Positions 29,974 through 54,417 of a stretch of 64,000 nt of DNA are shown here, piece after piece; within the stretch, counting starts at the first letter, position 1; the number at the start of each line of letters is the position of its first letter. This stretch comes from Claveliimonas bilis. Lineage in GTDB: Bacteria; Bacillota; Clostridia; Lachnospirales; Lachnospiraceae. The notes beneath the pieces are model-generated. The model was given only the letters and a program-made list of their open reading frames with translations. It ran no database searches and was not told the DNA's origin. The position numbers and the translations under genes are program-made. The stretch is taken from assembly GCF_020892095.1 (NCBI RefSeq), contig NZ_AP024845.1, forward strand, positions 558,001 through 622,000, in the 5' to 3' direction.

Positions 29974-30576
29974 TTGAAAGAATACTCTAAAGAAAAAACT
30001 ATGCAAAAGCCGGAACGGAAAGTGCAGCAGCTTACTTTGTGCGGTCTTTTTACCGCGCTGACTGCTATCGGCGCCTTTATTCAGATCAGTATTCCTGTGG
30101 AGCCCTTTCCCATGCATTTTACTCTGCAGTTTTTCTTTTCACTGCTCGCCGGGTTTGTACTTGGCGGCAGACTTGGCGCTTTAAGCGTGGGAATCTATCT
30201 TCTCATCGGCTTATGCGGAGTACCTGTATTTGCATCAGGCGGAGGCCCTTCCTATCTCCTGAAGCCAACCTTCGGCTTTCTCTTAGGATTTGTCTTTGCC
30301 GCCGGTGTTACCGGATGGCTGTCTGAAAAGTTTCCTCCTCAAAAAATATGGGGATACCTTTTCATTTCAACTGCCGGATTTGCAGTGATGTATCTTTCCG
30401 GAAACTTATATTTTTATTTTGTCAGCAACTATGTTATCCATGTTCCGGTTTCCTGGAAACTTGTTCTCATAAACTGCTTTTTCCTTACGGCTGCCGGCGA
30501 TTATCTTTTATGTATTCTGGCTTCCATCACAGCCAGACGGCTTCTTATCCTGAAAAAAAAGATACTTTCCAACTGA
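29974..30576 (+). CDS. bioY: BioY biotin transporter (ECF substrate-binding subunit)
   Basis: 200 residues with six membrane helices. LCGLFTALTAIGAFIQISIP, MHFTLQFFFSLLAGFVLGGRLGALSVGIYLLIGLCGVPVFA and GPSYLLKPTFGFLLGF are the BioY signatures. It binds biotin and works with the shared ECF module (EcfA/A'/T) encoded elsewhere, so the cell probably scavenges biotin. The frame starts with TTG 29974 (aggtg 7 bp before); ATG 30001 is an equally typical BioY start but has no good ribosome site. Confidence 0.93.
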   Translation: MKEYSKEKTMQKPERKVQQLTLCGLFTALTAIGAFIQISIPVEPFPMHFTLQFFFSLLAGFVLGGRLGALSVGIYLLIGLCGVPVFASGGGPSYLLKPTFGFLLGFVFAAGVTGWLSEKFPPQKIWGYLFISTAGFAVMYLSGNLYFYFVSNYVIHVPVSWKLVLINCFFLTAAGDYLLCILASITARRLLILKKKILSN

Positions 30577-30606
30577 CAGATATTCAGATTGGAAAGTATT
30601 TTTTTA
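30563..30606. terminator. Terminator after bioY, also serving the acyl-ligase operon
   Basis: ACTTTCCAA and its complement enclose an inner ctga/tcag pair and are followed by TATTTTTTT on the plus strand; A-rich on the other side. Confidence 0.8.
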
Positions 30607-32127
30607 CTGCTGTCTTTTTATTTTGCGGGAGGTGGTTTTTTCAAACTCTTGCTCTCGTACCTTTAATCTATATATCCTTTTATGCAAAGGCGCACTTTGA
30701 TTATAGTCATCAATTAGTTTCTGAAGTGCTGATTTTATATCTTTTATATGTTTCTTTTTCACATATTCTTCGCTCGGAAATATTTCCGCTTCAATCACTC
30801 CATCACATTCTCTCACCAGAACTTCCTGTACAAGACGGCTTTCACCCAATTTATTTTCCAACTCTTCCGGCGATACGTTTTCCCCGTTTTTTGTAATGAT
30901 CAGATTTTTCTTTCTTCCTGTCAGGAATACAAAACCCTCTTCATCCACATACCCCAGATCCCCTGTCTTCAGCCAGCCATCTGACAGTGTTTCCTTCGTT
31001 TCATCCGGCATCTTATAATATCCCTGCATGACGCTGCTTCCTTTTACCCAAAGTTCGCCGTCCACAGTCTTTGCCCTGCAATTCGGAAGAAGCTGTCCTA
31101 CGCTTTCTTTTTTCATGTTCCAGCTTACATTATTACTGATAACCGGCGCACATTCCGTCATTCCGTATCCTTGCAGAATTGTGATCCCATAGCGTTTAAA
31201 AAGATCAATATAATCCGGATTCAGATAAGCGCCTCCGCTGCAGATTGTGTGAAGCTGCTTTCCAAATACTTTTGCCTTCACAATAGCCGGCGGGATCAGG
31301 GATGCATCCTCCAGCTTCCTTGCCAGTGTTTCAATCATAAGCGGAACCATTAAAATCATTTCCGGCTGAAACAGCTTGATATTTTTGGCAACTCTCATAA
31401 GGGAGTCGTTGATGCATACCACCGCTCCCAGAGACATTCCCTTTAGGATATCCATACTCAGACAATAAGCGTGATGGATGGGAAGGACAGATAAAAGCAC
31501 CGTTTTCTCCGGAATCTTCATATCCAGGCAGGTAGCGTTTTCTGCCATGTTTCTGTGTGTCAGCATGACGCCTTTGCTCTTTCCCGTCGTTCCAGACGTA
31601 AACATGATGGTACAGAGCTGATCCGGATCCGGCATTTCCTGGAAACTGCCCCTGTTTTCTTCCAAAAGACCTGAAAAGGACAGAACCTTATCGCTTTCTC
31701 TTCTTCCGCCTTGTTCCTTTTGCATGGAAATAATATCCTTCAATTTCGGACAGACTTTCTCCGCCATTTCCTGCACATCTCTGCGGCAGTCGTCCGCTAC
31801 CAGCACCGTAACATCTGCGCGATTTATTAATTCACAGACTTCGTCTGCCGGAAGCGAGACATCCAGCGGCACCGCTACACTTCCGCTGTTTACAGTTCCA
31901 AAGTAGGCAGTCAGCCATTCATAAGATGTCTTTCCGATCACAGCCACATGGTTCCCCTTTTGTCCCAGGCTTTCAAGGGTACGTGAAAATGCTTCACTAT
32001 CCTCTTTCAGCTGAGTATATGTCCTGGACACAATTTCATTTTTCCCGGCTTTATATCTCACCGCATCCTCTGAACCATATTTTTCTTCTGTACGTGTCAA
32101 TATCTCACGAATTGTAGTACAAATCAT
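30604..32127 (-). CDS. AMP-forming acyl/aryl-CoA or acyl-ACP ligase (ANL superfamily)
   Basis: 507 residues. P-loop motif IMFTSGTTGKSKGVMLTH (174-191), LQGYGMTECAP (A5), GWLKTGDLGY (A7), and a C-terminal KTTSRKIKR with the catalytic Lys, so both half-reactions should work: adenylation of a carboxylate, then transfer to a thiol. The gene lies 17 bp after an acyl carrier protein and within the cluster 30604-35122, so the natural acceptor is probably that ACP. The carboxylate (fatty or aromatic acid) cannot be told from sequence. Last gene of the operon. Confidence 0.92.
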   Translation of the reverse strand: MICTTIREILTRTEEKYGSEDAVRYKAGKNEIVSRTYTQLKEDSEAFSRTLESLGQKGNHVAVIGKTSYEWLTAYFGTVNSGSVAVPLDVSLPADEVCELINRADVTVLVADDCRRDVQEMAEKVCPKLKDIISMQKEQGGRRESDKVLSFSGLLEENRGSFQEMPDPDQLCTIMFTSGTTGKSKGVMLTHRNMAENATCLDMKIPEKTVLLSVLPIHHAYCLSMDILKGMSLGAVVCINDSLMRVAKNIKLFQPEMILMVPLMIETLARKLEDASLIPPAIVKAKVFGKQLHTICSGGAYLNPDYIDLFKRYGITILQGYGMTECAPVISNNVSWNMKKESVGQLLPNCRAKTVDGELWVKGSSVMQGYYKMPDETKETLSDGWLKTGDLGYVDEEGFVFLTGRKKNLIITKNGENVSPEELENKLGESRLVQEVLVRECDGVIEAEIFPSEEYVKKKHIKDIKSALQKLIDDYNQSAPLHKRIYRLKVREQEFEKTTSRKIKRQQ

Positions 32128-32144
32128 TTTCCTGATCCCTTCCC

Positions 32145-32378
32145 TTACTTTTCTGCTGTCAGCTTCTCCAGATAGTCTGCCGCTTCCTGTACAGTGCGGA
32201 TATCAGCTGCCTCTGTCTGCTCGATCTCCACATCAAATTCTTCCTCAAGTTCGCCCAGCATACTCATAAAATCAAAAGACGTGAATCCAAGATCTTCTAT
32301 AAAACGGGAGTCCGGATGTATATTTTCCTGTTCCACTTCCACATATTCACAAATAATTTCTGTCAGTTTTTCAAACAT
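32145..32378 (-). CDS. Acyl carrier protein of the condensation-domain cluster
   Basis: 77 residues, very acidic. The phosphopantetheine attachment site is EDLGFTSFDFMSM with Ser34; the DLG-x-x-S form is that of stand-alone ACPs/PCPs rather than fatty acid AcpP (DSL-type). It sits between a condensation-domain protein and an AMP-forming ligase, so it most likely carries the acyl group the ligase loads and the condensation enzyme transfers. No phosphopantetheinyl transferase gene is in the cluster; the cellular enzyme would have to serve. Confidence 0.92.
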   Translation of the reverse strand: MFEKLTEIICEYVEVEQENIHPDSRFIEDLGFTSFDFMSMLGELEEEFDVEIEQTEAADIRTVQEAADYLEKLTAEK

Positions 32379-32407
32379 TTCCTTTTCCTCTTTTCATAAA
32401 TTTATGA

Positions 32408-33811
32408 CTAAATCAACTTAATAATTTCTCCAATCTTAAGATTTGGATTTTCCACACCTTTGAACATGATCTTGCAGAGATAATAGTACAGGTATTCCAG
32501 GTCTTCTCTTGATACTGCTTTCACCTGATGCTCAAAATTAAAATCCAGTCCGTTATCTTCCGGTCTGTGCATGACCGTCAGATACATTGCCTGCGTTGTG
32601 GCTCCGTTGGGATACCATTTTGTCTTATATTTAATATCCCCCAGCTGCTCCAGCCCCTTTTCTTTCAGTGTCATAGGCTGATAGGTCAGCGACATCGGCT
32701 CATAAGTAAGGCCCGGTTCATGAGGATATACCATTGCCCGATGCGCAAAATATTCAACCGGATCATAATTTGCATGGCGGAAATATTCATTTTGTTTATC
32801 CCGGATCTCATAAATCCCCTCCAGAAAGCTCTTCTCCCCAGATATGACGGTCCGGAACGGAAAAGAATGGATCCTCGTACCTCCCGACTTTTTTTCTTTC
32901 AGCGTTGCTCTTCTTGCAATTGCCATATTGATGGACACATCGTCATTTCCATTCATTTTCTGAAAATAAGTCCGAAGTCCCATCATGAGCAGACAAGCCA
33001 AAGAGACATGGTTCTCTTCGCAGAATGCCATAAGTCTCCTGGTCGGTTCTTCCTCCAGATGGAAAATATCAATGGCGGAATCTACGGAATCTGACGTATT
33101 AAAAGCTGCCCTTAATGTGGGATCATTATAGTTTTTTCTGGCCTCTTCAAGTTTTTCCGGTCCTCTAAGCCCGTTGTATATAGGCTCTGACTCTTCAATC
33201 ATCTTCTCAAAGAATTCCCTGTCTTTTTGCTGCGCTCTGCTTCCCGCCTCATAGGCAAGATCTCTTTGAATCTGCTCCACATAGGAAGCCATGTCCTTAG
33301 GATACGGAACCCCCTCATATTTAGCGTTGCAGTACAGCTCAATAATATCTTTCAGAAAAGCGATCAAAGACTGGGCGTCCAATGTCCTATGATCTCCGAG
33401 AAGATATATACCGTTATAGCCATCCGGCATGCGGATCATAACAATCCGGTTCATGGGAGAATCTTGAAGTCTGAAGGGTACCTTGGTCCAGGACTTCATC
33501 TCTTCTTCTGCTTCTTCCATGGTTCGTCCGGAAAAATCTACAAATTCTATTTCCCTTTCTTCTTGATCCACAATGTACTGATAAATGCTCCCGTCTTTAT
33601 CTTTTGCAAAACGTACCCGCATTCCTTCACTCCGCTCATAAGCCTTATAAATAGCCTGTCGCAGCACATCCCAGTCAATATCTGTTTCAATAGTCAGACT
33701 GGTTCCGATATTCAGAACTTCCTTTTTCGGGCACTTTTCCTGATAAAAGAAATGAAATTTCTGTGCGGCAGTCAGCGGATATACCGGATGTCCTTTTCGT
33801 TTTCTCATCAT
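32408..33811 (-). CDS. Stand-alone condensation-domain acyltransferase
   Basis: 467 residues. YPLTAAQKFHFFYQEKCP opens a CAT-like fold (C-domain motif 1-like). The active site reads GDHRTLDAQSL (His141, Asp145) in place of the usual HHxxxDG, keeping the catalytic second His and the Asp. A second domain follows (SLACLLMMGLRTYFQKMNG; SINMAIARRATL). Proteins of this kind join an ACP-bound acyl group to an amine or alcohol, as free-standing C domains or wax/alcohol acyltransferases do. Start ATG overlaps the hydrolase stop (ATGA), so the two are translated together. Product unknown. Confidence 0.85.
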   Translation of the reverse strand: MMRKRKGHPVYPLTAAQKFHFFYQEKCPKKEVLNIGTSLTIETDIDWDVLRQAIYKAYERSEGMRVRFAKDKDGSIYQYIVDQEEREIEFVDFSGRTMEEAEEEMKSWTKVPFRLQDSPMNRIVMIRMPDGYNGIYLLGDHRTLDAQSLIAFLKDIIELYCNAKYEGVPYPKDMASYVEQIQRDLAYEAGSRAQQKDREFFEKMIEESEPIYNGLRGPEKLEEARKNYNDPTLRAAFNTSDSVDSAIDIFHLEEEPTRRLMAFCEENHVSLACLLMMGLRTYFQKMNGNDDVSINMAIARRATLKEKKSGGTRIHSFPFRTVISGEKSFLEGIYEIRDKQNEYFRHANYDPVEYFAHRAMVYPHEPGLTYEPMSLTYQPMTLKEKGLEQLGDIKYKTKWYPNGATTQAMYLTVMHRPEDNGLDFNFEHQVKAVSREDLEYLYYYLCKIMFKGVENPNLKIGEIIKLI

Positions 33812-34752
33812 TTTATAATTCCTCCTATAAATGCATTGAGGGCTTCTTCATACATTTCTCTCTCTTTATAATAGCTTTCTGCATGTCCGGCTCCCGGCAC
33901 GATCAACTTTGATTTTAGAGCCCCGTAATTCTCATAAATCTCTTCACACATAGAGCAGGGGACAAATCTGTCCTTCTCTCCATGGATCAAAAGAGCCGGA
34001 ACTTTGGCCTTTCTTACTTCCCGGGCTGCATTGCATTCGTCCAGGCCGTATCCTGCCCGGCGTTTGTTTACCCGGTCTGCAATGGGGATCATGGGAAAAG
34101 CAGGAAGATGGTACATCGTTTTCAGCACATGAGTAAATACATATTTCGGTGAAGTAAAGGCGCAGTCGGATACGATTCCCTTTACCTGTTCAGGAAGCTC
34201 AAGCCCTGCCGTCATCAAGACAGTCGCTCCTCCCATGGATGTACCATGAAGAAGGATCTGTACCTCTTCCCCTGCCTCGTCTATCATCCACCGGATCCAT
34301 TCCAGCGCATCCCACCGGTCCGCACATCCAAATCCTATGTATTCCCCTTCACTCTGCCCATGGGCGCGTTCATCTGCCAGAAGCATGCGAAATCCTTTTT
34401 CCAGATAGTATTTTGAAAGTCCGATATAGTCGCTCATTCCCTGGCTCGTATATCCGTGGAAACAGATCACTGCCTTATTTCCTTCTTCTCCTTTAAAGTA
34501 AGTCCCATGGAGCTTTAAACCGTCTTTAGATTTTATATATACATCTTTGTGCGGCTGAGACAGCATCCACTTTTTTCTCGCTTTCATAAAAGGTTCATAC
34601 TGATGCCAGTCCGTGCCTGACATCTTGATCGTACGCTCGGTCTTTGCCTCTGACCTCTTCATAGTGCGTCGGTAGAAATAGGCGGTTCCTCCTATTCCGG
34701 CAGATGTCAGGCTAAGAAGCGCTGCTGCCGCTGTTTTGATCACTCGTTTCAT
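33808..34752 (-). CDS. Membrane-anchored alpha/beta hydrolase
   Basis: 314 residues. An N-terminal helix (about 5-27) probably anchors it. The hydrolase fold has VICFHGYTSQG, ADERAHGQSEG, the nucleophile elbow HGTSMGG (Ser172), IHGEKDRFVP (Asp) and GAGHAESYY (His), a complete triad. The closest type is the YqkD/FrsA-like hydrolases. In this operon it could be a thioesterase or esterase that releases or edits the product. It overlaps the condensation gene by 4 bp. Confidence 0.9.
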   Translation of the reverse strand: MKRVIKTAAAALLSLTSAGIGGTAYFYRRTMKRSEAKTERTIKMSGTDWHQYEPFMKARKKWMLSQPHKDVYIKSKDGLKLHGTYFKGEEGNKAVICFHGYTSQGMSDYIGLSKYYLEKGFRMLLADERAHGQSEGEYIGFGCADRWDALEWIRWMIDEAGEEVQILLHGTSMGGATVLMTAGLELPEQVKGIVSDCAFTSPKYVFTHVLKTMYHLPAFPMIPIADRVNKRRAGYGLDECNAAREVRKAKVPALLIHGEKDRFVPCSMCEEIYENYGALKSKLIVPGAGHAESYYKEREMYEEALNAFIGGIIK

Positions 34753-34786
34753 TTCTTCACCGATCCTTTTCCTGTTTTACCTTTTT

Positions 34787-35122
34787 CTATTTCTTTTTCC
34801 TGCTGTCAATAAACTGTTTCAGTTTTAAAGCTTTCTCTATATTTCCTTCTACTTTCAGTTTTCCAAGGGTTACCGCCAGGATCGGATCCTGCTTCCCGGA
34901 TGCTATCTTCATCAAAGTCTCTGCTGTACAGATAAACATGGCATCCCTGTCAAAATACTCATAAGGCTCTACATACAATTTCCCTTCTTTTACTTCCACA
35001 TAAAAAATTCCTTCTGCCTCCCCTGTAATATTGAACTGATAGGCCAGGTGCTCGGTTATATCGCTTACATCCGCCTCCATGAACATTCCTTTTACCTCTG
35101 CAAACATATCCGCATAAGTCAT
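34787..35122 (-). CDS. SCP2 sterol-carrier-like lipid-binding protein
   Basis: 111 residues. The small SCP2 fold is recognised by YQFNITGEAEGIFYVEVKEGKLYVEP, DAMFICTAETLMKIASGKQDP and LKVEGNIEKALKLKQF. These proteins bind long acyl chains in a hydrophobic tunnel. It is the first gene of the cluster, 33 bp before the hydrolase, and follows a strong ribosome site (aaaggagg). Its presence supports a lipid substrate or product for the cluster. Confidence 0.9.
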   Translation of the reverse strand: MTYADMFAEVKGMFMEADVSDITEHLAYQFNITGEAEGIFYVEVKEGKLYVEPYEYFDRDAMFICTAETLMKIASGKQDPILAVTLGKLKVEGNIEKALKLKQFIDSRKKK

Positions 35123-35143
35123 TCTACATTTTCCTCCTTTTTT

Positions 35144-35204
35144 CGACCATTGGTCGTATCTTTTCTGTTGTTAAAATATCATCTTTTCGACTATCGGTCA
35201 ATAG
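35144..35204 (-). promoter_or_regulatory. Promoter and two TetR operators of the acyl-condensation cluster
   Basis: On the minus strand TTGACC, 17-bp spacer and TATTTT (about 35202-35174) form the promoter. One site, CGACTATCGGTC (35188-35199), covers the -35. The second, CGACCATTGGTCG (35144-35156), is a near-perfect palindrome between start site and ribosome site. The shared CGAC...GGTC pattern points to the TetR-type regulator divergently encoded at 35335. Confidence 0.75.
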
Positions 35205-35334
35205 TGATTACGCTAAAATACCGGAAGGATTTTCCGTCATTTTTGTAAGGATTTTCATTGGCTTTTCTGATACATCTGTGCTATACTAAGCTGTAAATCA
35301 AAATGACAGCAACAGAAAGGAAAAGGCGAGGCAG

Positions 35335-35946
35335 ATGGCCAATCAGGCAAAATACGAAAAAATTTTGGATGCACTTCAGACTCTTCTGGAAGACCGCAGC
35401 ATACAGACAATATCCGTCAGCGAAATTGCGCAGACTGCCGGTATCGGGAAAGGCAGTATCTACTATTACTTTCCGTCCAAAAATGCGATCCTGGATGCAC
35501 TGATCCAAAGAAATTACGAAAAGCCCATACAAACTGCCCGCAGTCTTACAAGCCAGCCGGATATTTCCCCCTTTACACGCATGGCAATGATCTTCCAGGC
35601 ATGCCGCAATTCTTCTTCTGAATTTTTGAAATCCGAAGGAACGACTGCATCCGGCGCTCAGGAAAAGGCCTTTCTGCATCAAAAATATTTAAATCATCTG
35701 ATTTCCGAACTAAAGCCGGAGCTGGCAGCGATCATACGTCAGGGAATTGAGAGAGGAGAAATCCATTTCGACCGTTCGGAAGCCCTGGCCGAAATTGTCT
35801 TGATTGTTTTGACCGTAAAATTGGATAACACACTGATTCCATCTACACGTGAGGAAATAGAAGATACCATTGCCGGCCTTGCCTCTCTTCTTGAAAAAGG
35901 GACAGAAAATCCGACCGGATCCTTAAATTTTTTAATGACAATATAA
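35335..35946 (+). CDS. TetR-family regulator, probable repressor of the acyl-condensation cluster
   Basis: 203 residues. The DNA-binding domain is clear: AKYEKILDALQTLLEDRSIQTISVSEIAQTAGIGKGSIYYYFPSKNAILDALI. The C-terminal ligand domain has no recognisable specificity. Start ATG 35335 follows aaaggaaaaggcgag. The gene faces the SCP2-hydrolase-condensation-ACP-ligase operon over 212 bp that contain two matching palindromes, the usual layout of an autorepressor with a lipid-like inducer; the inducer is unknown. Confidence 0.9.
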   Translation: MANQAKYEKILDALQTLLEDRSIQTISVSEIAQTAGIGKGSIYYYFPSKNAILDALIQRNYEKPIQTARSLTSQPDISPFTRMAMIFQACRNSSSEFLKSEGTTASGAQEKAFLHQKYLNHLISELKPELAAIIRQGIERGEIHFDRSEALAEIVLIVLTVKLDNTLIPSTREEIEDTIAGLASLLEKGTENPTGSLNFLMTI

Positions 35947-35990
35947 AAAGCCGAGACAGTGTTCATAAACTGTCTCAGCTTTATTTTTTT
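35947..35990. terminator. Bidirectional terminator
   Basis: AAAGCCGAGACAGT (35947-35960) pairs with ACTGTCTCAGCTTT (35969-35982) with one mismatch; T run on the plus side. It overlaps the very end of the ABC1 kinase gene. Confidence 0.85.
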
Positions 35991-37564
35991 GAAAAAAGAT
36001 GTTTGATAAATACATACATAACAATTCCAAAAGCGATAAGATATCCCAGCGCTCCCAGTGCCGGGATTCCCCATATCTTCGGCTTCATATCTGTTGTACA
36101 GATAATACTGGAACTGATAAGAAGCGCCATTACCCACAGTCCCATTACAATATTCTGCACCATTCTTCTTAGAAGCCGTGAAAGTTCTGTGGAAGCATGG
36201 AGATCCAGATTAACGCGCGTCTGACCCTTCAGATATCCCTGTACGGCATCGGCTACAAGGGTCGGAATATCAAGCGCTCTGTGAAAAGCCCGGTAAAAAC
36301 TTTTTCCGCTGCTTTTCAGCTCCTTCTTCCAATCAAAATTTTTCAGCAGACTTTCCTTGATCCTTCCGGCAGCAATCTCAACCATATTGATCTCCGGTGA
36401 AATTTCTGCCAGCACCCCTTCCATGTGTGTCAGACCTCTTGCAAGCATCGTAAGACCATGAGGCATAATAATTCCATTTTCCTTCATGACATCCATGAGA
36501 TCCATAGTGATGGCAGCGACATCAATATTCCCCATATCCACTCTTCCATATTTGGATAAAAGGTTGTTGATATCCTCATACAGACGGCTGGGATCCGGCG
36601 GTTCCTTGAACTCGCCCAGAATCATAACTGCATCCTGAATCATTCCAATGTCATTTGCAGCCACACCGCGTACAGCCTTTGCAATCTGCTCCCTGTCTCT
36701 CTCTGTAAGCCGTCCCATCATCCCCATGTCAATCCATATGATCTTGCCGTCACGGATTCTTAAGTTACCGGGATGGGGATCCGCATGAAAAAAGCCGTCC
36801 TCAATGATCTGCTTCATATAATTATCTGCAAGTTTACTTCCAATCTCTTTCAGATCATAGCCGTTCTCCAGAAGCGCTGTCTTATCATCAACCTCAAATC
36901 CATCAATATATTCCATAACAAGGACATGAAGGGTCGTATATTCCTGGTAAAGAACGGGAGTCCCCACAAAGGAAATTCCTTCATTTTTCTTGGCAAACTC
37001 TTCCATGTTAGCCGCTTCTGTAAGAAAGTTCATTTCCTCACGGGTCACATCCCAAAGCTCATTTAAAACCATGTCAATATCCACCATGCCCTTGATAGTG
37101 GCAGACGGAATCAGCTTTGCCGCTTTTCTAAGCAACGCAATGTCCCGGGCCATCATCTCATAAATTCCCCTTCGCTGCACTTTAATCACAACGGGAGATC
37201 CGTCCTTTAATACAGCCCGGTGTACCTGTGCGATAGAGGCAGAACCGAGAGGCTTTTCACTGATTTCCTTAAAAATAGTCCCCCAGGCACAGCCATAAGA
37301 ATCTTCTATCACATCAGAAACTTCTGAAAAAGGCATCGGTTTTACATCTGATCTTAATTTCATCAGCTCATCGCAGTATTTTTTTGGAAGAATATCAGAA
37401 TGCATGGACATGATCTGTCCGATCTTGATATAAGTCGGTCCCAGATCTTCCAGGATCAGCCTTAATTTTTCCGGAGTCAGCCCTCTGGTGATCTCATACT
37501 TTCGAAGGATATCCACCATTTCCCGAAGCCGGCTTTTATATTCTCCGGATTCTTTTTTACTCAT
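35981..37564 (-). CDS. ABC1/UbiB-family atypical kinase
   Basis: 527 residues from ATG 37564, whose codon overlaps the phasin stop. Family motifs: LGPTYIKIGQIMS (KxGQ), KPLGSASIAQVHRA (Ala-rich loop), VVIKVQRRGI (Lys), FFHADPHPGNL and DMGMMG. The C-terminal ~60 residues form two membrane helices (NIVMGLWVMALLISSSI; GALGYLIAFGIVMYVFI). UbiB/Coq8 proteins are ATPases that help extract lipid or quinone substrates from membranes. No ubiquinone or menaquinone gene is present here, so the substrate may be another lipid. The phasin-like gene is its partner in many Clostridia. Confidence 0.93.
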   Translation of the reverse strand: MSKKESGEYKSRLREMVDILRKYEITRGLTPEKLRLILEDLGPTYIKIGQIMSMHSDILPKKYCDELMKLRSDVKPMPFSEVSDVIEDSYGCAWGTIFKEISEKPLGSASIAQVHRAVLKDGSPVVIKVQRRGIYEMMARDIALLRKAAKLIPSATIKGMVDIDMVLNELWDVTREEMNFLTEAANMEEFAKKNEGISFVGTPVLYQEYTTLHVLVMEYIDGFEVDDKTALLENGYDLKEIGSKLADNYMKQIIEDGFFHADPHPGNLRIRDGKIIWIDMGMMGRLTERDREQIAKAVRGVAANDIGMIQDAVMILGEFKEPPDPSRLYEDINNLLSKYGRVDMGNIDVAAITMDLMDVMKENGIIMPHGLTMLARGLTHMEGVLAEISPEINMVEIAAGRIKESLLKNFDWKKELKSSGKSFYRAFHRALDIPTLVADAVQGYLKGQTRVNLDLHASTELSRLLRRMVQNIVMGLWVMALLISSSIICTTDMKPKIWGIPALGALGYLIAFGIVMYVFIKHLFSKK

Positions 37565-37871
37565 CGGATTCCTCAGCCTCTTTTGCAAGAATACGGTCCT
37601 TCAAAGCCTGTATCTGCTCCGGCGTCATTTTATCCAACAGCTCGTCCAACTCCTCCGGAGAGGAAGCCTTGACAGAGACATTGACCTTATCTTTCATCGT
37701 TTTTTTGATATTATGCTTCAATTCTTCATTAAGGGCTTTTCCCTGCTCTACAGTCAATTCCCCTTTTTTTACCATTTCATCCAGCACTTCTTTTGACTTT
37801 TCTGTCGTTACTGCCACTGCTCCAATCCCTGCCAGCAGTATCTTTTTCATGCCATCTCCAAAATTTTCCAT
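37557..37871 (-). CDS. Phasin-like coiled-coil protein
   Basis: 104 residues. A short hydrophobic start (MKKILLAGIGAVAVTTEKSKEVLDEMVKKGELTVEQGKALNEEL) is the PhaF/PhaI-like heptad pattern found in small Firmicutes proteins annotated as polyhydroxyalkanoate regulators, followed by a charged C-terminus (MTPEQIQALKDRILAKE). No PHA synthase is in the window. The gene overlaps the ABC1 kinase start, so a joint role at membrane lipids or lipid droplets is the more natural guess. Confidence 0.8.
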   Translation of the reverse strand: MENFGDGMKKILLAGIGAVAVTTEKSKEVLDEMVKKGELTVEQGKALNEELKHNIKKTMKDKVNVSVKASSPEELDELLDKMTPEQIQALKDRILAKEAEESDE

Positions 37872-51739: not shown

Positions 51740-54367
51740 CTATTTCTGTGCGATTGCTGCCTGTGCTGCTGCCAGACGTGCGATCGGTACACGGAACGGT
51801 GAGCAGGATACATAGTCAAGTCCAAGGCTATGGCAGAACTCTACAGAGCTTGGATCTCCACCGTGCTCTCCACAGATACCTACGTGCAGTTTTTCGTTAA
51901 CTGGCTTTCCTAAGTCGATTGCCATCTTCATCAGCTTGCCAACGCCATCCTGATCCAGTTTTGCAAATGGATCGTTCTCGAAGATCTTAGCGTCATAGTA
52001 AGCATCCAGGAATTTTCCAGCGTCATCACGTGAGAAGCCGTATGTCATCTGTGTCAGGTCGTTTGTACCGAAGCAGAAGAAGTCAGCTTCTTTTGCAATC
52101 TCATCAGCTGTCAGAGCAGCTCTTGGGATCTCGATCATTGTACCAACTTCGTACTTCAGATCGCTTCCTGCTGCTGCGATTTCAGCATCTGCTGTCTCAA
52201 CAACGAATTTCTTCACATATTTCAGCTCTTTGATATCTCCAACAAGCGGGATCATGATCTCCGGCTGTACTTTCCATTCCGGATGAGCTTTCTGTACATT
52301 GATAGCTGCACGGATAACAGCTTTTGTCTGCATCTTTGCGATTTCCGGATATGTCACTGCCAGACGGCATCCACGATGTCCCATCATTGGGTTGAACTCA
52401 TGCAGGCTGTCGATAACAGCTTTGATCTGCTCAACTGTCTTGCCCTGTGCATCAGCCAGTTTTTTGATGTCTTCTTCCTCTGTCGGAACGAACTCATGAA
52501 GCGGTGGGTCAAGGAAACGGATCGTTACCGGGTTTCCTTCCAGAGCCTCATACAGTTTCTCGAAGTCTCCCTGCTGTTCCGGAAGGATCTTCTCCAGTGC
52601 AGCTTCTCTTTCTTCTACTGTCTCAGCGCAGATCATTTCACGGAATGCATCGATTCTGTTACCTTCGAAGAACATATGCTCTGTACGGCAAAGTCCGATA
52701 CCTTCTGCTCCAAGTTCGCGTGCTTTCTTAGCGTCTGCAGGTGTATCTGCATTTGTACGAACCTTCATTGTTCTGTATTTGTCAGCCCATCCCATGATTC
52801 TTCCGAACTCTCCAGCGATTGTTGCATCTACTGTCGGGATGATTCCGTCATAGATATTACCTGTGGATCCGTCAAGTGAGATTGCATCTCCCTCGTGGAA
52901 CTCTTTTCCTGCAAGTGTAAATTTCTTGTTTGCCTCATCCATTACGATGTCACCGCATCCGGATACACAGCATGTACCCATTCCACGTGCAACAACGGCA
53001 GCGTGAGATGTCATACCACCACGAACTGTCAGGATACCCTGTGCAGATTTCATACCTGTGATATCTTCCGGTGATGTCTCAAGACGTACAAGTACAACTT
53101 TCTCTCCTCTTGCAGCCCATTCTACAGCGTCATCTGCTGTAAATACGATCTTACCGCATGCAGCTCCCGGAGATGCTCCAAGTGCTTTTGCCATCGGTGT
53201 AGCTGCCTTAAGAGCAGCAGCGTCGAACTGCGGATGAAGCAGAGAGTCAAGGTTTCTCGGATCGATCATAGCAACTGCTTCTTCTTCTGATCTCATTCCC
53301 TCATCAACAAGGTCACAAGCGATCTTCAGAGCAGCTTTTGCTGTTCTCTTTCCGTTACGTGTCTGAAGCATATACAGTTTACCATGCTCTACAGTAAACT
53401 CCATATCCTGCATATCTCTGTAGTGTGTTTCCAGAGTCTTGCACACTTCTTTGAACTGTGCGAAAGCTTCCGGGAATTTCTCTTCCATTTCGGAAATGTG
53501 CATAGGAGTACGAACACCAGCAACAACGTCCTCTCCCTGTGCATTTGTAAGGAACTCACCGAAGAGTCCGTTCTCTCCTGTAGCAGGGTCACGTGTAAAT
53601 GCAACACCTGTACCACAGTCATCACCCATGTTACCGAATGCCATCATCTGTACGTTGACAGCTGTTCCCCATGAGTACGGAATGTCGTTGTCACGACGGT
53701 ATACGTTTGCTCTCGGGTTGTCCCAGGAACGGAACACGGCTTTTACAGCACCCATCAGCTGCTCTTTTGCATCTGCCGGGAAATCTGAACCGATCTTCTC
53801 TTTGTACTCAGCTTTGAACTGTCCTGCAAGAGTCTTCAGATCCTCTGCTGTCAGCTCTACGTCCTGAGTTACGCCTTTTTCTTCTTTCATCTTATCGATG
53901 AGCTCTTCAAAATATTTCTTTCCAACTTCCATTACGACGTCAGAATACATCTGGATGAATCTTCTGTAGCAGTCCCAAGCCCAGCGTGGATTGCCGGAAG
54001 CTTCTGCCAGAGTCTCAACAACTTCCTCATTAAGACCAAGGTTCAGGATTGTATCCATCATACCTGGCATGGAAGCTCTTGCACCGGAACGCACGGAAAC
54101 GAGAAGCGGATTCTGCTTGTCCCCGAATTTCTTTCCTGTGATCTCTTCCAGTTTAGCCATGGCGTCCATGATCTGTCCCATGATTTCATCATTGATCTTT
54201 CTGCCATCTTCATAGTACTGAGTACAAGCCTCTGTCGTAACCGTAAATCCCTGTGGTACCGGCAGTCCAAGGCCTGTCATCTCTGCCAGGTTTGCACCTT
54301 TGCCACCCAGAAGGTTTCTCATAGTTGCGTTACCTTCTGTGAACATATAAACCCATTTTGTTGCCAT
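51740..54367 (-). CDS. ppdK: Pyruvate, phosphate dikinase
   Basis: 875 residues from ATG 54367 (MATKWVYMFTEGN), preceded by aggaggt; the longer frame start at 54412 lacks one. ATP-grasp domain: LLGGKGANLAEMTGLGLPVPQGF and the ARASMPGMMDTILNLG loop. Swivelling phosphohistidine domain: GGMTSHAAVVARGMGTCCV (active His, with the regulatory Thr two residues before it). PEP/pyruvate barrel: GIGLCRTEHMF, MGHRGCRLAVTYPE, VGTMIEIPRAAL and VGICGEHGGDP (Cys). It converts PEP, AMP and PPi to pyruvate, ATP and Pi, a major glycolytic step in anaerobic Clostridia. Single gene. Confidence 0.97.
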   Translation of the reverse strand: MATKWVYMFTEGNATMRNLLGGKGANLAEMTGLGLPVPQGFTVTTEACTQYYEDGRKINDEIMGQIMDAMAKLEEITGKKFGDKQNPLLVSVRSGARASMPGMMDTILNLGLNEEVVETLAEASGNPRWAWDCYRRFIQMYSDVVMEVGKKYFEELIDKMKEEKGVTQDVELTAEDLKTLAGQFKAEYKEKIGSDFPADAKEQLMGAVKAVFRSWDNPRANVYRRDNDIPYSWGTAVNVQMMAFGNMGDDCGTGVAFTRDPATGENGLFGEFLTNAQGEDVVAGVRTPMHISEMEEKFPEAFAQFKEVCKTLETHYRDMQDMEFTVEHGKLYMLQTRNGKRTAKAALKIACDLVDEGMRSEEEAVAMIDPRNLDSLLHPQFDAAALKAATPMAKALGASPGAACGKIVFTADDAVEWAARGEKVVLVRLETSPEDITGMKSAQGILTVRGGMTSHAAVVARGMGTCCVSGCGDIVMDEANKKFTLAGKEFHEGDAISLDGSTGNIYDGIIPTVDATIAGEFGRIMGWADKYRTMKVRTNADTPADAKKARELGAEGIGLCRTEHMFFEGNRIDAFREMICAETVEEREAALEKILPEQQGDFEKLYEALEGNPVTIRFLDPPLHEFVPTEEEDIKKLADAQGKTVEQIKAVIDSLHEFNPMMGHRGCRLAVTYPEIAKMQTKAVIRAAINVQKAHPEWKVQPEIMIPLVGDIKELKYVKKFVVETADAEIAAAGSDLKYEVGTMIEIPRAALTADEIAKEADFFCFGTNDLTQMTYGFSRDDAGKFLDAYYDAKIFENDPFAKLDQDGVGKLMKMAIDLGKPVNEKLHVGICGEHGGDPSSVEFCHSLGLDYVSCSPFRVPIARLAAAQAAIAQK

Positions 54368-54417
54368 GTTCCAATGACCTCCTAAAAAATTTTTCTTTCT
54401 AGTAATTTGCACATAAT

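Follow-up and report, generated by a model that had tools for sequence, protein, structure and literature searches.

The 64,000-nucleotide stretch of the Claveliimonas bilis genome analysed here (contig NZ_AP024845.1, positions 558,001 to 622,000; the whole stretch is termed the window) carries on its minus strand one operon for an SCP2-like protein, a membrane-anchored alpha/beta hydrolase, a free condensation protein (C), an acyl carrier protein (ACP; T) and an AMP-forming ligase (A). A gene for a TetR-family regulator is divergent from the operon. All six assignments are above the Pfam cut-offs in a profile search. The features of this cassette, in window coordinates, are as follows.

30562..30599, no strand: probable terminator at one cassette edge, read in the sequence as the inverted repeat ATACTTTCCAA / TTGGAAAGTAT followed by TTTTTT, where the BioY and ligase genes converge
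30604..32127, minus strand: A, putative fatty-acyl ligase, AMP-forming and stand-alone, 507 aa (PF00501, 231 bits)
32145..32378, minus strand: T, free ACP, 77 aa, with phosphopantetheine serine S34 (PF00550, 54 bits)
32408..33811, minus strand: C, free-standing condensation protein, 467 aa, with D140-H141-R-T-L-D145-A146 (PF00668, 140 bits; PDB 12KH, E=4e-119)
33808..34752, minus strand: H, alpha/beta hydrolase with an N-terminal membrane anchor and the triad S172/D261/H290 (Hydrolase_4/Abhydrolase_1, ~55 bits)
34787..35122, minus strand: S, SCP2-like lipid-binding protein, 111 aa (PF02036, 52 bits; SCP2 structures 4uei and 1c44)
35142..35158, minus strand: operator 2, TACGACCAATGGTCGAA, 44 bp downstream of operator 1 and ~10 bp beyond the expected transcription start
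35173..35201, minus strand: operon promoter, with -35 TTGACC (35201-35196), a 17-bp spacer and -10 TATTTT (35178-35173)
35186..35202, minus strand: operator 1, ATTGACCGATAGTCGAA, a palindrome conserved in relatives, overlapping the -35 box
35335..35946, plus strand: R, TetR-family regulator, divergent from the operon (PF00440, 48 bits)
35947..35982, no strand: two-way terminator-like stem of 14 pairs at the other cassette edge, where the TetR and UbiB-like genes converge

The original prediction for this DNA described a minimal acyl-ligase/ACP/condensation-domain cluster at 30604-35204. Coordinates and Pfam matches agree with it on the place of the five operon genes, all on the minus strand, and the 4-bp overlap that it reported between the hydrolase stop and the C start is seen at 33808-33811. 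Its limits are too narrow, because the TetR gene is also part of the cassette, which sets the natural limits at ~30577-35980. The predicted unit is nevertheless real and well bounded, and its chemistry was guessed correctly. All six genes are under purifying selection (pN 0.08-0.24 versus pS 0.54-0.90), with dN/dS of 0.05-0.12 where dS is unsaturated, dS being often saturated. Judged from these sequences, the six cassette genes are functional.

A probable fatty acid amide-type C-T-A operon

The C protein matches OaaC (PDB 12KH) over its full length, with 40% identity, 402 bits and an E value of 4e-119; the next structure, an ordinary nonribosomal peptide synthetase (NRPS), scores 52 bits. OaaC is the free condensation enzyme of Coprococcus eutactus that couples oleate carried by OaaACP with 5-aminovalerate, with OaaA as the ligase. 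Activation of the acid, loading of the ACP and transfer to the amine have been demonstrated for OaaA/OaaACP/OaaC, and OaaC is strict for its amine (PMC13142362). The motif of the window protein, DHRTLDA, follows the noncanonical (D/H)HxxxD[S/A/G] pattern, with Ala after the catalytic Asp, and its residues H141, D145, A146 and Q147 are invariant in 81 aligned sequences. C, T and A are separate genes lying side by side in this order, with no megasynthase, and a genome-wide profile search detects no condensation domain other than the cassette C protein. Both a tree and the score gap place the C protein with OaaC, apart from ordinary NRPS condensation domains; since the tree contains a single NRPS outgroup, this separation rests mainly on the difference between 402 and 52 bits. 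In the published tree, the condensation domains of fatty acid amide (FAA) systems adjoin starter condensation domains (PMC13142362).

The best NCBIfam match of the ligase is a long-chain fatty-acid ligase (267 bits, below the cut-off of 476), and an amino-acid adenylation domain scores 153 bits. The P-loop TSGTTGKSKG and the A10 lysine are kept in relatives wherever aligned, and S34 of the ACP is invariant in 79/79 aligned sequences. The original prediction noted that no phosphopantetheinyl transferase (PPTase) is present, which holds within the window and fails genome-wide: the sole PPTase match in the genome is a 213-aa protein encoded at G000:C1:1300255-1300896 (= L001:1399-2040), which by its length and motifs is Sfp-type. 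AcpS is not found in the genome by profile search, but the same profile gives no match in 6 of 14 control genomes either, which leaves its absence unproven. The sole PPTase being Sfp-type and AcpS being undetected, fatty-acid synthesis and the cassette pathway may depend on the same enzyme for priming.

These features suggest that the cassette is very probably an FAA system, in which C-T-A would make an N-acyl amide from a small amine and a fatty acid. FAA gene clusters of gut Clostridia were described by Chang et al. in 2021 (as cited in PMC13142362 and PMC13060934). FAA operons are named CTA operons, and C-T-A homologues have been surveyed in 36 Lachnospiraceae species with an identity of 70% or higher, over 80%, to a C and A protein catalogued by Chang et al. 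as the criterion (PMC13060934). CTA-positive Blautia and Coprococcus produce more acyl amines; fatty acids are toxic and added amines rescue growth (PMC13060934). As far as these citing papers tell, the description of the product as unknown in the original prediction was thus already outdated. Of its two proposals for the product, an acyl amide or a lipid ester, the former is supported, because the proposed chemistry has been shown for the homologous OaaA/OaaACP/OaaC (PMC13142362), and the latter is disfavoured.

The cassette shares with oaaA-oaaACP-oaaC the free-standing C, ACP and A genes, the (D/H)HxxxD(S/A) motif and a Lachnospiraceae host. It differs in that its C protein has Ala, whereas OaaC has Ser, after the catalytic Asp, and in that it adds SCP2, an upstream hydrolase and a divergent TetR gene with paired operators. 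A further trait of OaaC within the FAA/CTA family is that it is a homodimer taken apart by holo-ACP. With the CTA operon of Blautia wexlerae, which has been linked to N-acyl ethanolamines, acyl dopamine and fatty-acid detoxification (PMC13060934), the cassette has in common the Lachnospiraceae three-gene order C-T-A. The starter condensation domains of lipopeptide NRPSs, which work with a free fatty-acyl ligase and an ACP, likewise use a fatty acyl donor, but the window has no NRPS module, no carrier-bound acceptor and no other condensation domain in its genome. The C-T-A chemistry, which joins fatty acids to amines and yields signalling lipids, is already known from a published family, and the cassette is widespread in gut bacteria; its conserved accessory genes and operator pair are less familiar. 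New here are the branch with six genes, its two operators and the signs of movement as a cassette.

The six-gene branch and its paired operators

When 396 Lachnospiraceae genomes are searched, a C protein is found in 65 of them. The matches fall into a first group with 51-100% identity to the window protein (45 genomes) and a second group with 34-40% identity (20 matches). A single outlier has 27% identity, and both types occur together in one genome. OaaC belongs to the second group in the tree, being 54-57% identical to its nearest members and 40% identical to the window protein. The residue after the catalytic Asp is Ala in nearly all members of the window group and mostly Ser in the OaaC group, and the Ala branch of the window (support 0.97) is sister to the Ser branch that holds OaaC. 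In the published FAA set of 127 sequences, 42% have Ser at this position, 36% Ala and 17% Gly, and the share of Ala indicates that the branch of the window is very likely already among these sequences. A divergent C protein at the base of the window's branch in the tree (locus L139; 36% identity) has the motif NHMIQDSSG and the gene order C-A-T. Two large Lachnospiraceae genomes contain OaaC-like C genes without a nearby A or T gene (L135 and L138, the latter with unrelated neighbours); these may be orphan or decaying copies, or may be served by carriers elsewhere.

The complete order, with a divergent TetR gene followed by SCP2, hydrolase, C, T and A, is present in 69 of the 82 Ala-type loci with full flanks. 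In the other 13, TetR, SCP2 or hydrolase is absent or displaced, and C-T-A is kept in all 82. Separation of the five operon genes in most relatives, which would have spoken against the predicted unit, is thus not observed. In 18 Ser-type loci, the Ala-branch profile detects no SCP2. In 7 of them an anchored hydrolase whose GxSxG is intact lies near C, and frequently a TetR-family gene sits downstream of A and points towards it. The hydrolase and TetR near C in both branches are thus recurring partners of both, and SCP2 and the divergent TetR mark the Ala branch. The TetR-family gene after the ligase in OaaC-type operons (L125-L133) is a different one, with the conserved start DERYxxxxEAIxDAF, and may provide a second, different regulation of the same pathway. 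SCP2, hydrolase and TetR are not mentioned in PMC13142362 and PMC13060934; Chang et al. (2021) may show them.

The two TetR operators that had been proposed at the promoter, with palindromes at 35143-35155 and 35187-35199, are borne out by conservation. The consensus ATTGACCRNYGGTCGAA occurs in 86/86 TetR-SCP2 intergenic regions, far in excess of the shifted palindromes GAC-N4/6/7-GTC (4, 7 and 26 regions respectively). Two copies are present in 77 regions, spaced by 44 bp in 48, 43 bp in 19 and 45 bp in 7. The paired site (GACC-N3-GGTC, 43-45 bp apart) occurs exactly once in each of 84 of the 107 Ala-type loci (1.47 Mb); in the same sequence it does not occur at five other spacings, and it is absent from the 18 Ser-type loci. 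The promoter is conserved with it: -35 TTGACC is found in 73/76 relatives and the -10 box is kept after the same 17-bp spacing (T65, A63 and T63 of 76). The probable promoter of the TetR gene itself lies at 35258-35287, outside the operators. By its conservation and position, the paired operator is in all probability the target of TetR, and its layout would suit a repressor that blocks the polymerase. Exact operators occur in the window's genome at this promoter only, which makes the regulator look local; looser matches are genome-wide below the level of a reversed-pattern control, giving no sign of a regulon beyond the operon.

Proposed mechanism and alternative readings

By the chemistry shown for the Oaa system, and assigned here by homology, the Sfp-type PPTase would prime the free ACP, and the ligase would adenylate a fatty acid and load it on the ACP. 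The free C protein, like OaaC, would then acylate a small amine that diffuses freely, with release of the N-acyl amide. For SCP2, the likeliest role would be that of a carrier of the incoming fatty acid or of the product, an assignment that is at best evenly balanced. The likeliest role of the membrane-anchored hydrolase would be to cleave an ester at the membrane and liberate the fatty acid, which is equally tentative. Its S172, D261 and H290 are invariant in 73 sequences and the hydrophobic N-terminus is kept; the nearest solved structure is a generic esterase (59 bits), a match that does not fix the substrate. TetR bound to both operators, at the -35 box and past the transcription start, would block transcription until a ligand releases it. 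This ligand would most likely be an acyl compound or a fatty acid, the fatty acid itself having an even chance at most. The likely use to the cell would be the conversion of toxic free fatty acids to harmless amides, as proposed for Blautia wexlerae (PMC13060934). Taken together, these steps would make the Ala branch a distinct, self-contained six-gene form of the FAA system, in which free fatty acid serves as substrate and also as inducer, sensed by TetR, released by the hydrolase, delivered by SCP2 and joined to an amine by C-T-A, and which moves between Lachnospiraceae as one cassette. This composite proposal is speculative, and as a whole less likely than not.

Several points weigh against the assignment of the cassette to the FAA family and its proposed working. 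The nearest characterised enzyme, OaaC, is only 40% identical, and no named member of the Ala branch is known to have been characterised biochemically. A few Ala-type loci lack SCP2 and the hydrolase, which suggests that these may be helpful and not essential. The acceptor amine is not readable from the sequence, and no aromatic-type PLP decarboxylase (PF00282) is above the family cut-off in the genome, so that the amine may come from outside.

The alternative that comes closest to the FAA assignment is that detoxification or scavenging of fatty acids is the real function and the amide a by-product: the hydrolase and SCP2 would take up host or diet lipid, TetR would sense free fatty acid, and the amine would be any nucleophile available. 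The published work on Blautia, in which fatty acids are toxic and amines rescue growth (PMC13060934), agrees with it, as does a weak resemblance of TetR to FadR-type fatty-acid regulators (FATransRegFadRBac, 40 bits, below the cut-off). However, the strictness of OaaC towards its amine (PMC13142362) suggests that a particular product is important. This alternative, which overlaps with the FAA assignment and differs from it in purpose and not in chemistry, is a serious one, if somewhat short of an even chance. It is improbable, in contrast, that the cassette serves a lipid-ester or lipid-remodelling pathway, in which C would transfer the acyl group to an alcohol, or acyl-ACP would feed membrane lipids, with SCP2 and the hydrolase as lipid-handling partners. 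Both of these are general lipid proteins, and some condensation-type domains are generally known to make esters, but the nearest relative to have been characterised forms amides, with free amines as substrates (PMC13142362), the C motif is the FAA motif, and the C-T-A order is that of amide operons. C, T and A are also the domain set of an NRPS, and could be a truncated or starter fragment working with NRPS modules elsewhere in the genome. This reading has almost no probability left and is refuted for this genome, which has no other condensation domain and whose C protein groups with OaaC, far from NRPS condensation domains.

Human G-protein-coupled receptors respond to the lipids that FAA operons produce. 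Should a ligand of TetR turn on the six-gene form, diet-derived fatty acids could set the output of these lipids by gut bacteria, and the operator pair, being conserved, offers a direct way to probe such induction. The six genes with the paired operator also form a stricter signature for counting in metagenomes than the C-T-A genes alone.

Spread of the cassette

The C protein and a marker protein encoded in the window (51740-54412) disagree on the relatives of this genome. The marker protein is 96% identical to that of Mediterraneibacter intestinipullorum and 93% identical to that of Lachnoclostridium sp. An169 (genomes as labelled), and 69% identical to that of Fusicatenibacter intestinigallinarum and strain An817. 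In contrast, the C protein is 74-75% identical to that of M. intestinipullorum/An169 and 82-83% identical to that of F. intestinigallinarum/An817. This conflict points to horizontal transfer. In four congeners (L153-L156), BioY and the UbiB-like gene lie 23-116 bp apart with the cassette site empty, and these congeners carry their own diverged six-gene cassettes (72% identical) elsewhere, without any neighbours of the window cassette. These results suggest that the window copy fills that site and came as a six-gene unit. Horizontal transfer would be the simplest reading, with loss and regain as the alternative. No plasmid copy is found (0 matches in 72,556 plasmids). Beyond the cassette, at 35981-37871, this anaerobe has a phasin-like gene and after it a UbiB/ABC1-like kinase gene, and the pair is kept beside BioY in the congeners.
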